Of a stretch of DNA of 64,000 nt, positions 3,206 to 41,776 are shown one piece after another. The notes below the pieces were generated by a model. That model was not told the origin of the DNA, did not search any database, and saw nothing but the letters and a program-made list of their open reading frames with translations. Each line of letters begins with the position of its first letter. Position 1 is the stretch's first letter. Source of the stretch: Bacillota bacterium (GTDB taxonomy: Bacteria > Bacillota > Sulfobacillia > JAJZYS01 > JAJYTV01); contig JAJYSJ010000005.1 of the NCBI GenBank assembly GCA_021793645.1, forward strand, positions 1 through 64,000, written 5' to 3'. A program made the translations under genes and the position numbers.

Positions 3206-3245
3206 AATGACAATAGGGGTGCGCCAGATTCTTCCAGGCAGGTGA
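3206..3245. repeat. Conserved junction flank next to sigK copy 2
   Basis: Starts with AATGACAA and shares the AGGGGTGCG, ATT and CCAGGC blocks and a trailing ACCGG with 207-245. The similarity fades after about 40 bases. AATGA positions in the two flanks are 2999 bases apart, and the matching codon in intact sigK is a further 3009 bases on. Confidence 0.6.
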
Positions 3246-3568
3246 CCGGTTATGAGTTTGCTCCCGGTCCTGTAGTCCTGTGTCAGGCGCTGAGAGGAAT
3301 CCAGTCCAGTCCCCCGTCGTACTTCCGTCCCTGCTTGCCCTAGACCGCGACATGCCGGACGCGCCGGGCGATGAGCAGCCTGCGGTCCTCGGGTGGTCAG
3401 CCAGCTCCAGTATCCAACCGACGAATGATCGAACAGAGTGCTGCTTGGGGCCAAGGGGGTGCCGATAGGCCCCTGCTCGCGAGGCCCTCTTCCATTCTAA
3501 GGTACAGGAGGTGACAAGATACATCCGCAGAAGTTCTGGCTGAAAGTCAAGTCCGCGGAGGTGGTAGG
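3246..3568. other. Leader region before the beta-propeller lipoprotein
   Basis: I see no gene. The end of the stretch carries the GGAGGTG ribosome binding site (3557-3563) for the gene starting at 3569. I could not pick out a convincing promoter or terminator. Confidence 0.4.
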
Positions 3569-38248: not shown

Positions 38249-40009
38249 ATGCAGCGAGAATCTGCGGGATCACTGCGCTCGACCGACATCGGCCGCCGCG
38301 TACGGCTAGCCGGGTGGGTCCATCGCGTCCGCGACCATGGCGGCGTGCTCTTCTTCGACCTGCGCGACCGCTCCGGCATCTGCCAGATCGTCGTTTCTCC
38401 CACGGACGCCGCGTCAGCGGCCGCTTCCCGTCTTCGACCCGAATGGGTAATCGCAGTGGAAGGCACGGTGCGTACCCGCCAAGAGGGTGCAAAGAACGCG
38501 AAGATCGCCACAGGCGAGATCGAGGTCTCGGATGTCGCGCTTGAGGTGCTCTCCGAGTCGGACGTGCCGCCTGTGCTGCCCTCGGCAAACGACGTACCCG
38601 ACGAGGCAGTGCGCCTGCGCTACCGCTTTTTGGACCTGCGTCGCGAGGAGATGCAGAGAAACCTTGCACTGCGCCACCGCGTCCTGCAGGCGACGCGCCG
38701 ATACCTGGATGCTGCAGGCTTCTATGAACTCGAGACGCCGATGCTGACCCGATCAACGCCGGAGGGATCGCGCGACTTCCTCGTGCCAAGCCGCATGCAG
38801 CCGGGCGCCTTCTATGCGCTGCCGCAGTCGCCGCAGCTCTTTAAGCAGCTGCTGATGGTATCCGGCTTCGAGCGCTACTTCCAGATCGTGCGCTGCTTTC
38901 GGGACGAGGATCTACGGGCCGATCGGCAGCCGGAATTCACGCAGATCGATATCGAGATGTCCTTTGCGCAGCAGGAGGATGTGCTCTCGCTCGCAGAGGG
39001 TCTGACGAAGTCGCTTGTCGCCGAGGCCGGTTGGGATCTTTCCCTTCCGCTGAAGCGGCTTACCTACAAGGACGCCATGGCACGCTACGGTTCGGACAAG
39101 CCGGACCTGCGCATTCCTCTCGAAATCATCGACCTAGGGACCCTGGCGGATGCCTTCGACACCCCCTTGATCCAGGGGGCTCTCGCCGCTGGCGGCGTGC
39201 TGCGTGGGCTGCGCGCGCCCGGCGGCGCTGCGCTCTCGCGCAAGCAGTGGGACGAACTGGGGCGGGAGATCGAGCGGTTTGGCGTAAAGAGCGTCCCCTA
39301 TGTCATACGCGACGCAGACGGCTTGCGCGGTTCGCTCGCCAAGGCACTGCAGCCGCAGGCCCAAGATGCGCTGATCGGCGCGCTTGGCCTCGCGGTTGGC
39401 GACGCGGCGGCGATCCTTGCAGGAGAGGACGAGAAGGTCAGCCTTGCCCTCGGGGTCCTGCGGCTCTCGTTCGCGGACCGCTTCGCGCTGCGCAAGCCTG
39501 GCCACCGCTTCCTCTGGGTCACGGACTTCCCTTTGATGGAGTGGAGCGAGGAGGAGGGGCGCGCCGTCTCGCGCCACCACCCATTCACGCACCCGAATCC
39601 TGCGGACCTTGGCCGCCTGGAGGACGAACCCCTCGCGGTACGGGCGCAGGCCTACGACCTCGTCCTCGATGGCGTCGAAGTCGCGGGCGGGAGCATCCGT
39701 ATCCATGAGCGTTTGCTGCAGGAGCGCATCTTCAAGCTGCTCGGCCTCACCGAAGAAGAGACGCGGAACAAATTCGGCTTCCTGCTAGATGCCTTCCGCT
39801 ACGGCGCACCGCCGCATGGTGGCGTCGCCTTCGGCTTCGACCGCCTGATCATGCTGCTCGCGGGCGCGTCGAGCATCCGCGACGTGATCGCCTTCCCCAA
39901 GACCGCAAAGGGCACGGATCTTCTGACCGGAGCGCCAGCTGAAGTCGCCAAGGCGCAGCTCGAGGAGCTGCGCCTGCGCGAGATGCCACCAGAAGAAGCG
40001 AAGCGTTAG
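38249..40009 (+). CDS. aspS: Aspartate--tRNA ligase
   Basis: 586 residues, 19 bases after hisS. Bacterial-type enzyme: OB-fold anticodon domain (VRLAGWVHRVRDHGGVLFFDLRDRSG), class II core (TPMLTRSTPEGSRDFLVPSR, QSPQLFKQLLMVSGFERYFQIVRCFRDEDLRADRQPEFTQID-type motif 2 block, GVAFGFDRLIMLLAGASSIRDVIAFPKT motif 3) and the GAD insertion in the middle. It probably charges tRNA-Asp only or also tRNA-Asn; the sequence does not decide. The end overlaps the convergent holin-like gene by four bases. Confidence 0.96.
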   Translation: MQRESAGSLRSTDIGRRVRLAGWVHRVRDHGGVLFFDLRDRSGICQIVVSPTDAASAAASRLRPEWVIAVEGTVRTRQEGAKNAKIATGEIEVSDVALEVLSESDVPPVLPSANDVPDEAVRLRYRFLDLRREEMQRNLALRHRVLQATRRYLDAAGFYELETPMLTRSTPEGSRDFLVPSRMQPGAFYALPQSPQLFKQLLMVSGFERYFQIVRCFRDEDLRADRQPEFTQIDIEMSFAQQEDVLSLAEGLTKSLVAEAGWDLSLPLKRLTYKDAMARYGSDKPDLRIPLEIIDLGTLADAFDTPLIQGALAAGGVLRGLRAPGGAALSRKQWDELGREIERFGVKSVPYVIRDADGLRGSLAKALQPQAQDALIGALGLAVGDAAAILAGEDEKVSLALGVLRLSFADRFALRKPGHRFLWVTDFPLMEWSEEEGRAVSRHHPFTHPNPADLGRLEDEPLAVRAQAYDLVLDGVEVAGGSIRIHERLLQERIFKLLGLTEEETRNKFGFLLDAFRYGAPPHGGVAFGFDRLIMLLAGASSIRDVIAFPKTAKGTDLLTGAPAEVAKAQLEELRLREMPPEEAKR

Positions 40010-40338
40010 CGAATCGCGGTCGGGATGACGAGGTCGACAACGCCGATTACAAACGCCGCGAGCAGTGCGCCGATCAGCGACACATGCATATTCGGGATGA
40101 CGAACTGCACAAGCCAGATCACGACGGCGGATACCAGGAACCCGACGATTCCGCGACCGTAGGTCGAATTGTGCTTGCCCAGCATCAGTTCGATCAGGTA
40201 GCTGACCGCAGCGATCACCAGCGCTGCCAGCAGAGCTTCGCCGAAGGTGAGCCGACTGAAGCCCGGCACCACGTAGCCGATCAACATCAGTACGATGGCG
40301 GCGACGATGAAGCGCACGACCGTGCCCAAGACGCGCAT
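40006..40338 (-). CDS. Phage holin family / YvlD-like four-helix membrane protein
   Basis: 110 residues from ATG 40338, seven bases after GGAGGTG; the longer frame to 40434 is not needed. Four hydrophobic helices ([73 protein letters not shown]) match the mycobacterial-type 4TM holin superfamily, which in Bacilli is mostly chromosomal and of unknown role. Confidence 0.82.
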
Positions 40339-40489
40339 GCCTAGACACCTCCGATGCCTAGTGTCCGGCGCAACGGCCGCAAGTATGCGTGCGCGAGCGG
40401 ATGGCGGAGCATGCGCCGTCTGGCACGCGGTCATCCCCGTTGCAGCGATTCTTCGCGCCCGGTCGGTGGTGGCTTCGTCCGTCGCCCGG

Positions 40490-40498
40490 TGCTATACT
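40490..40498 (+). promoter_or_regulatory. Extended -10 promoter of the 6S RNA candidate
   Basis: TGCTATACT gives an extended -10 (TGn-TATACT). The -35 position is weak. Transcription would begin near 40505. Confidence 0.55.
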
Positions 40499-40504
40499 CA
40501 CGTC

Positions 40505-40689
40505 GATCACCCGACCATGTGCGACCTCCATCACGCAGTTTTGAGCCAACACCAAGACTGCGGGAGCTTGGTCTCTCGAGGCAGGACTGGCATGCCCCCT
40601 ACGCGGGGGAGCCGCAAAACCTCGAGGCCGGCACCCACCTGCGAGAGCAGGTTCAAAACGCGGCAGGTGCGGCATGGTGGGGCTTTTCG
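40505..40689 (+). ncRNA. Candidate 6S RNA (bsrA/ssrS type)
   Basis: A strong promoter and a UUCG-loop terminator frame about 185 bases with no coding frame. The ends pair: ACCATG and ACCT near 40514-40530 with AGGT and CATGGT near 40665-40679, then GTTTTGA (about 40542) with TCAAAAC (about 40652). Inside are hairpins ACCAAG/CTTGGT, CTCGAGG/CCTCGAG with CCCCC/GGGGG, and CCTGC-GAGA-GCAGG. The 3' strand GCGGCAT and 5' GAGCC echo 6S RNA from E. coli. In B. subtilis 6S-1 lies next to aspS, as here. 6S RNA binds sigma-A RNA polymerase in stationary phase. The internal branching is more than the textbook rod, so another structured RNA is possible. Confidence 0.55.
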
Positions 40690-40713
40690 GAACCTCCGCT
40701 TCGGCGGAGGTTC
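40690..40713 (+). terminator. Terminator with UUCG tetraloop
   Basis: Ten-base perfect stem (GAACCTCCGC/GCGGAGGTTC) closed by TTCG, the very stable tetraloop. It lies between the RNA gene and the threonine aldolase start at 40757. Confidence 0.75.
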
Positions 40714-40756
40714 TTCGCTTGCTTGCAGCGAAGACGATGCTTGGAGGGAATGCTCT

Positions 40757-41776
40757 TTGATCGATCTGCGCAGCGATACGGTGACGAAGCCGACCGACGA
40801 GATGCGCCGCGCGATGGCGCAGGCCGAGGTCGGAGACGATGTGTACGGCGAGGACCCGACCGTGAACCTGCTGGAGGAAGAAGCGGCCGTCTGGCTCGGC
40901 AAGGAGGCTGCGCTCTTAGTCCCGACCGGCACGATGGGCAACCAGGTGGCCGTCATGACGCACTGCCTTCCCGGGGACGAGGTGTTCGTGGAGGCCGAGG
41001 CCCATCTGTACTGGTACGAGAACGGCGGCATCGCCCGCCTCTCGCTCGCGCAGCCGCGCCAGATCCAAACTGCGGACGGACGTTTGACGCCAGAGCTCCT
41101 GGCGGCGGCGCTGCGCCCGGCGAACATCCACTACACGACTGCGCGCCTCGTGTGCGTAGAGAATACGCACAACCGGGCTGGCGGACGCGTGCAGCGGAAG
41201 GCGGACTTTGACGCGCTCGCGAGCTTTGCGCACGCTCAGGGTCTGAAGGTGCACCTCGACGGCGCCCGCCTTGCGAACGCCGCTGTCGCACAGGGTCTTT
41301 CCCTCGCGCAAGCGGCGGAAGGTGCGGACTCCGTGATGTGCTGCCTCTCCAAGGGACTGTGCGCACCAGTTGGATCGGTACTGGCTGGCACCAGGGAATA
41401 CATCGATCGGGCGCGCAAGGGGCGCAAGCTGCTCGGGGGCGGTATGCGGCAGGCAGGCGTCCTGGCGGCCGCCGGACTCATCTCGATCCGCAGCTTGGTG
41501 CCCCGGCTCGCGGAAGATCACCGCCTCGCCAAGGCCATCGCGGAGGAACTGGCGCAGCTTCCCGGAGTGGTCTGCGACCCCGCGAACGTCGAGACCAACA
41601 TGGTCATGGTCGACCTCGACCGCCCCGCCGATCCCGTGGTCCGGACGCTCGCGCACGAAGGGCTTCTTTGCGGGACGGCAGGGCCTCGCCGAATCCGACT
41701 CGTGACGCATCGGGACGTCGCGGGCGTTCACGCCGGCGAGGTTGCGAAGGCCTTCGCCGCAGCACTCAGCCAATGA
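40757..41776 (+). CDS. Low-specificity L-threonine aldolase
   Basis: 339 residues from TTG 40757, eight bases after GGAGGG; the 493-residue frame starting at 40295 runs through the RNA gene and is not credible. This PLP enzyme splits threonine or allo-threonine into glycine and acetaldehyde. Motifs are [58 protein letters not shown] and the PLP-lysine in [15 protein letters not shown]. It lies downstream of the 6S terminator and so probably has its own promoter or depends on read-through. Confidence 0.92.

Follow-up and report, generated by a model that had tools for sequence, protein, structure and literature searches.

A 6S RNA gene behind aspS in a Sulfobacillia genome and a covarying hairpin predicted in its 5' bubble strand

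The stretch of DNA that follows aspS in the window analyzed here (the whole 64,000 nucleotides studied, from a Bacillota bacterium of the class Sulfobacillia) is almost certainly an ordinary 6S RNA gene, whose one unusual trait is a hairpin predicted in the 5' strand of its central bubble (Table 1). 6S RNA is a small RNA that mimics a promoter and restrains RNA polymerase. The first-pass annotation had proposed a likely 6S RNA gene at this site, to be checked with the Rfam 6S covariance model, and the proposal was supported both by the place behind aspS and by a full-length match to RF00013 with 71.8 bits, which exceeds the curated gathering score of 46.4 by 25.4 bits. The accompanying hedge that the locus might encode a diverged 6S RNA or a different RNA can be dropped. 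The whole RF00013 consensus structure could be aligned, with the closing and terminal stems present in the minimum-energy fold (a rod layout with a central bubble), and the fold energy of the RNA is -86.6 kcal/mol versus -68.0 +/- 4.2 kcal/mol for shuffled sequences (z -4.4). The covariance score, the structure and the neighbourhood place it securely in the 6S family, the function presumably being that of the family, and the gene is a new member of a known RNA family.

Table 1. Features of the 6S RNA locus and its surroundings in the window
Feature	Position	Strand	Basis and remarks
aspS, aspartyl-tRNA synthetase	38249-40009	+	PF00152, 4.2e-119; PF02938 GAD domain; ORF
Small membrane protein, PF04020 (Phage_holin_4_2)	40006-40338	-	PF04020, 4.6e-15; between aspS and 6S
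Extended -10, TG-C-TATACT (TGCTATACT)	40490-40498	+	Sequence; family conservation
6S RNA	40506-40687	+	RF00013, 71.8 bits, model 1-187 of 187
5' bubble hairpin (predicted)	40534-40562	+	Arms 40535-40542 and 40554-40561; -12.3 kcal/mol, z -5.4
Putative template of 14-nt product RNA (AGUUUUGAGCCAAC)	40537-40550	+	Comparison with B. subtilis product RNA
P2, 5' strand (GUUUUGAGCC)	40538-40547	+	Pairs with 40650-40659 along Rfam consensus structure
3' central-bubble hairpin, ACCUGC-GAGA-GCAGGU (predicted)	40637-40652	+	Minimum-energy and centroid structures
P2, 3' strand (GGUUCAAAAC)	40650-40659	+	Rfam consensus alignment
UUCG-capped hairpin, terminator-like, weak U-tract	40689-40714	+	11 bp; -20.9 kcal/mol, z -5.1
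Threonine-aldolase-like gene (Beta_elim_lyase)	40757-41776	+	PF01212, 2.5e-103, match from residue 3

The product RNA of B. subtilis is 5'-GUUCGGUCAAAACUA (PMC12005410). By comparison, the product RNA of the window would be 5'-GUUGGCUCAAAACU, starting opposite C40550 and therefore beginning GUUGGCUC; the two are identical at 12 of 14 positions. Helix P2 was placed along the Rfam consensus, in which a further outer position, 40537, has no standard pair in the window.

The predicted 5' bubble hairpin occurs in both the minimum-energy and the centroid structures of the window RNA. It covers the product-RNA template and excludes P2, because both helices use the GUUUU of the P2 5' strand. When P2 is forced, the ensemble is 4.9 kcal/mol worse than the hairpin ensemble, leaving the 3' bubble hairpin with 3 bp instead of 6. 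In place of a single-stranded 5' bubble strand a hairpin is predicted for the free RNA, such fold energies ignoring the polymerase. The distal arm of the hairpin, CCAAGACUGC in the window and CCAAAACUGC in its relatives, resembles both the 3' part of the product RNA and the P2 3' strand. The earlier remark that internal branching is richer than in the classical rod is borne out by the predicted fold, since the 5' bubble strand is predicted to form a strong hairpin. According to the Figure 1 legend of PMC8876501, a weak 5' bubble hairpin is predicted in B. subtilis and was not confirmed by probing, and in the consensus of 14 Firmicutes 6S RNAs the 5' bubble strand is open. A temperature switch was also considered and rejected, the hairpin form of the window RNA staying favoured from 20 to 70 C.

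Another candidate cause of the extra branching, the central bubble collapse helix (distal 5' bubble with P2 3' strand), was tentatively set aside. Its strands do not covary across 38 families of the class (z -0.44 to +0.45), which is weak evidence, since 41 RNAs from beyond the class lack such covariation as well (z -0.9). As neither group shows a signal, this test does not separate the class from the rest. The pairing energy of the collapse helix is -1.9 kcal/mol in the window versus -3.6 kcal/mol in B. velezensis, and its replacement by the 5' bubble hairpin is offered here as a proposal.

Covariation of the hairpin was assessed by comparing the pairing energy of own arms with that of arms swapped between families, using the 5' bubbles of 132 RNAs from the class. 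With one RNA per family (45 families), own arms pair at -3.81 kcal/mol and swapped arms at -2.47 kcal/mol (z -6.49). In three draws of 38 families, seven of the 45 having fallen out of this test, the hairpin gave z values of -4.6 to -4.9 and the known helix P2 values of -4.0 to -4.8, the P2 3' strand being located, here and in the test outside the class, by pattern matching, which may hit a wrong site towards the 3' end. The covariation of the hairpin is about as strong as that of P2 in these draws. Reversed-arm controls in the same draws remained between z -1.1 and +0.2 and the reverse-complement control at -1.7, -0.6 and -1.1, and the outer nine left-arm bases alone gave a weak signal (z -1.9, -1.3 and -1.3). 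One genome (G026) contributes two of the 132 RNAs, and another two belong to G034 and G009, which come from the searches of relatives and order only; G051, G075, G085, G142 and the second G043 copy are not part of the set, and the partial 28.5-bit match of G029 was excluded from the structure tests. Sixteen of the RNAs have variant anchors instead of the standard CCAACA and were cut at these; at least one right arm was mis-cut (G081) and one RNA was cut in another register (G131), both being kept.

A gapless alignment of 80 sequences points in the same direction. These are the distinct sequences with a 9-base core and a 10-base right arm, the other 17 of 97 distinct ones being left out. Hairpin cells are paired in 61.3% of cases versus 53.4% after shuffling, with a covariation of 0.236 versus 0.154 that was reached by none of 500 shuffles, and both quantities are lower at every slide of the register; the relatedness of the sequences can inflate such covariation values. 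For the three outer pairs of the hairpin, pairing is 53.8% versus 36.5% and covariation 0.353 versus 0.157. The innermost of these three shares its position with the outer end of P2 in the Rfam consensus; the two outermost pairs, which lie outside P2, still give 53.8% versus 37.7% and 0.347 versus 0.162 (0 of 500 shuffles). Two of the five pair measures (further pair types and both-side changes) were not above shuffles in any of the three counts. Also, the arms stay complementary through sequence changes, as in the pairs GCAGUUUU/AAAACUGC, UAUGUUUU/AAAACAUA and UUUGUUUU/AAAACAAA. On these comparisons, the 5' bubble hairpin is probably a selected structure in the class.

The reach of the hairpin is uneven. 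Its probability exceeds 0.5 in 54 of the 132 class RNAs and, by median, in 14 of 45 families, neither the hairpin nor P2 reaching this value in 21 of the 132. In the window's own family it is above 0.5 in eight of eight RNAs (range 0.53 to 1.0), and in none of eight named Bacilli and Clostridia. Outside the class, 44 RNAs were tested, 12 of the 56 fetched having been dropped upon failure of the anchor or right-edge pattern and one with an overlong right arm (L264) having been kept. In these the hairpin reached z -1.6, not above its reversed-arm controls (z -2.4 and -2.2), P2 reached z -3.3, and the hairpin is predicted to form in 9 of the 44. A phylum-wide hairpin is therefore not supported, there being no signal above controls outside the class. 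As it is predicted in part of the class and shows no signal above controls beyond it, the hairpin is a patchy, lineage-level feature, and the sequence comparisons suggest that it is a real alternative fold at that level.

Intermediate situations were also observed. In one class family (f10, for example L125) hairpin and P2 are nearly balanced in 19 of 30 RNAs, with hairpin probabilities of 0.48 to 0.65. In families f9 and f34 the 5' bubble can pair in an alternative register, CACGG or ACGG with CCGUG or CCGU, which is not counted in the main-register probabilities.

Our preferred reading of the 5' hairpin is that of an alternative state in competition with P2 and with the product-RNA duplex. 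In the mechanism that we propose, an extended -10 promoter of its own would drive transcription of the 6S RNA, which would end at the UUCG hairpin. By analogy with B. subtilis and E. coli, it would imitate an open promoter and occupy the housekeeping RNA polymerase holoenzyme, from which synthesis of a short product RNA by the polymerase, with its start at C40550, would release it. The free RNA would be mostly in the hairpin form, polymerase binding or P2 formation would open the 5' bubble hairpin, and its distal arm may help to displace the product RNA after release or may keep the RNA inert, a role for the hairpin that we regard as rather doubtful. For the 6S RNAs of the class, it is quite possible, if short of probable, that the hairpin is a selected second switch, in which P2, hairpin and product-RNA duplex are three mutually exclusive states and which sets how readily RNA polymerase is bound and left.

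Two other explanations accept the 6S identity and differ on the hairpin. It could be a folding artefact of G+C-rich sequence in a plain 6S RNA, whose working form would have P2 and the classical open bubble, like that of B. subtilis; we see this as a serious possibility, though not the expected one. P2 is the helix of the Rfam consensus and has a probability above 0.5 in eight of eight named Bacilli and Clostridia, in 57 of 132 class RNAs and in 32 of 44 RNAs outside the class, where, as described above, the hairpin does not rise above its controls. Against an artefact stand the covariation of the arms within the class, relative to swapped, reversed and slid arms and including the two pairs outside P2, and the complementarity that the arms keep as their sequences change. 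The hairpin could instead serve only during transcription, guiding folding and protecting the 5' strand until P2 replaces it, which we consider unlikely. The timing would permit it, as the hairpin is local and its distal arm is complete at 40561, some 90 nt ahead of the P2 3' strand at 40650, but the full-length window RNA is still 4.9 kcal/mol better as hairpin than as P2.

Among known systems, B. subtilis 6S-1 (bsrA) shares with the window RNA the RF00013 architecture, a 3' bubble hairpin and P2; it too lies behind aspS, and its product-RNA template agrees with the putative one of the window at 12 of 14 positions (PMC11077062, PMC12005410). The window RNA differs from it in the stable predicted 5' bubble hairpin that competes with P2, and in a distal 5' bubble that resembles the P2 3' strand, the pairing of these two, as in the collapse helix of B. 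subtilis (PMC8876501), being computed as weaker than in B. velezensis. E. coli 6S RNA (SsrS) belongs to the same Rfam family and has the same promoter-mimic layout, the difference being the 6-bp 3' hairpin predicted in the free RNA of the window. The 6S RNAs of lactic acid bacteria are canonical in layout, a hairpin facing the 5' bulge, but are usually flanked by rarA and uspA, unlike the window RNA with its place behind aspS (PMC8414754). The Ms1 RNA of Actinobacteria likewise binds RNA polymerase and is structurally related to 6S RNA; unlike the latter, it is about 300 nt long and binds the core enzyme without the primary sigma factor (PMC9130861), and it is not the family matched here.

Release of 6S RNA from RNA polymerase has been described as differing between E. 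coli and B. subtilis (PMC8876501). A covariation analysis of Rfam alignments gave no evidence for the alternative helix that it sought in 6S RNA (PMC7657543), so that alignments at class level may reveal what a broad seed hides. In the 6S literature consulted, including PMC8876501, PMC12005410, PMC8414754, PMC11077062, PMC7657543, PMC8250186 and PMC9130861, no covarying 5' bubble hairpin was found. As a gene, the locus adds one more 6S RNA and closes the question of identity raised at first pass. What makes it useful is the covarying 5' bubble hairpin: this alternative helix shows compensatory changes across many families and offers a concrete target for mutation.

At the level of the gene itself, it is extremely improbable that the stretch is some other structured RNA or a long leader belonging to the threonine-aldolase-like gene downstream: the weak U-tract after the UUCG hairpin could allow some read-through into the gene at 40757, but a scan of the whole window found no Rfam family other than RF00013 at gathering score, the other local matches at the locus reach at most 18.8 bits against cut-offs of at least 45, and the gene follows the RNA in 72 of the 122 class loci with at least 1500 bases of downstream flank, so that the RNA is independent of it. 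A coding reading was likewise rejected; several long ORFs cross the RNA, but its length varies by non-multiples of three among eight family members (182, 179, 181, 185, 183, 182, 183 and 182 bases). The original description of about 185 non-coding bases with paired ends was confirmed by these lengths, by the extent of the RF00013 match and by the fold energy.

The extended -10 named in the first-pass annotation was recovered as such, and its TATACT is kept 7-10 bases 5' of the 6S model start in all eight family members fetched. More widely, -10-like sites (score of at least 5) occur in 112 of 132 class upstream regions versus 18 of 132 mononucleotide-shuffled controls. Transcription would start at about 40505-40506. 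The assignment of the promoter rests on the extended -10, because a generic -35/-10 scan of positions 40300-40900 called no pair. The proposed UUCG terminator fared less evenly. The hairpin is there, and its core stem is kept in eight of eight family members with UUCG (three), GCAA (three) or GCGA (two) loops, UUCG and GNRA loops both being stable tetraloops. However, the tail behind it, UUCGCUUG, has no U run, and a terminator scan at the locus called none, so with this weak U-tract an own terminator is only partly secured.

The place after aspS, which had been likened to that of B. subtilis 6S-1 and is on the same strand as aspS, agrees with the flanking of bsrA by aspS and yrvM (PMC11077062). 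In the window, hisS also lies upstream, and the threonine-aldolase-like gene would start at a TTG, judging from the GGAGG at 40743-40747. Upstream flank of 1500 bases or more was available for 121 class loci, of which 84 have aspS upstream on the same strand, and 36 of 43 class families have it in at least one locus; these synteny counts mostly cover 1500-2000 bases of flank and would miss a more distant aspS. Approached from the other side, in 10 of 12 aspS loci scanned with Rfam (of 80 fetched) aspS is closely followed by a 6S RNA on the same strand. Two of these 10 are from MAGs taken to belong to the window's own family, DX1.bin88 as a congener and HSP1.bin35 as a family member, with aspS identities of 79% and 76%. 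A tblastn search of 133 class loci placed relatives of the PF04020 protein upstream of the 6S RNA, on the minus strand, in 48 genomes. A 6S RNA is also present in families f9 (11 loci) and f34 (3 loci), for which the upstream flank fetched showed no aspS.

RF00013 is single-copy in the source genome (3.40 Mb, 94 contigs), where no second match was found. A 6S match is present in 39 of 41 relatives and in 13 of 15 genomes of the order. In the class survey, made up of genomes at least 80% complete, it occurs in 134 of 145 genomes (131 over the cut-off), and in the phylum sample in 61 of 61 (60 over the cut-off).

Two or more 6S matches per genome were observed in G026 (L006 and L126), G043, G148, G156, G159, G170, G177, G191, G198 and G211. 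In G026 one copy lies behind aspS and the other has no aspS within 3388 bases upstream. Two congeners of G029, namely G064 and G065, gave no 6S match in the class survey. In G029 itself (L127, family f19) the partial 28.5-bit match, at 3211-3312, is located between aspS and a threonine-aldolase-like gene, and this site may hold a strongly diverged 6S RNA.
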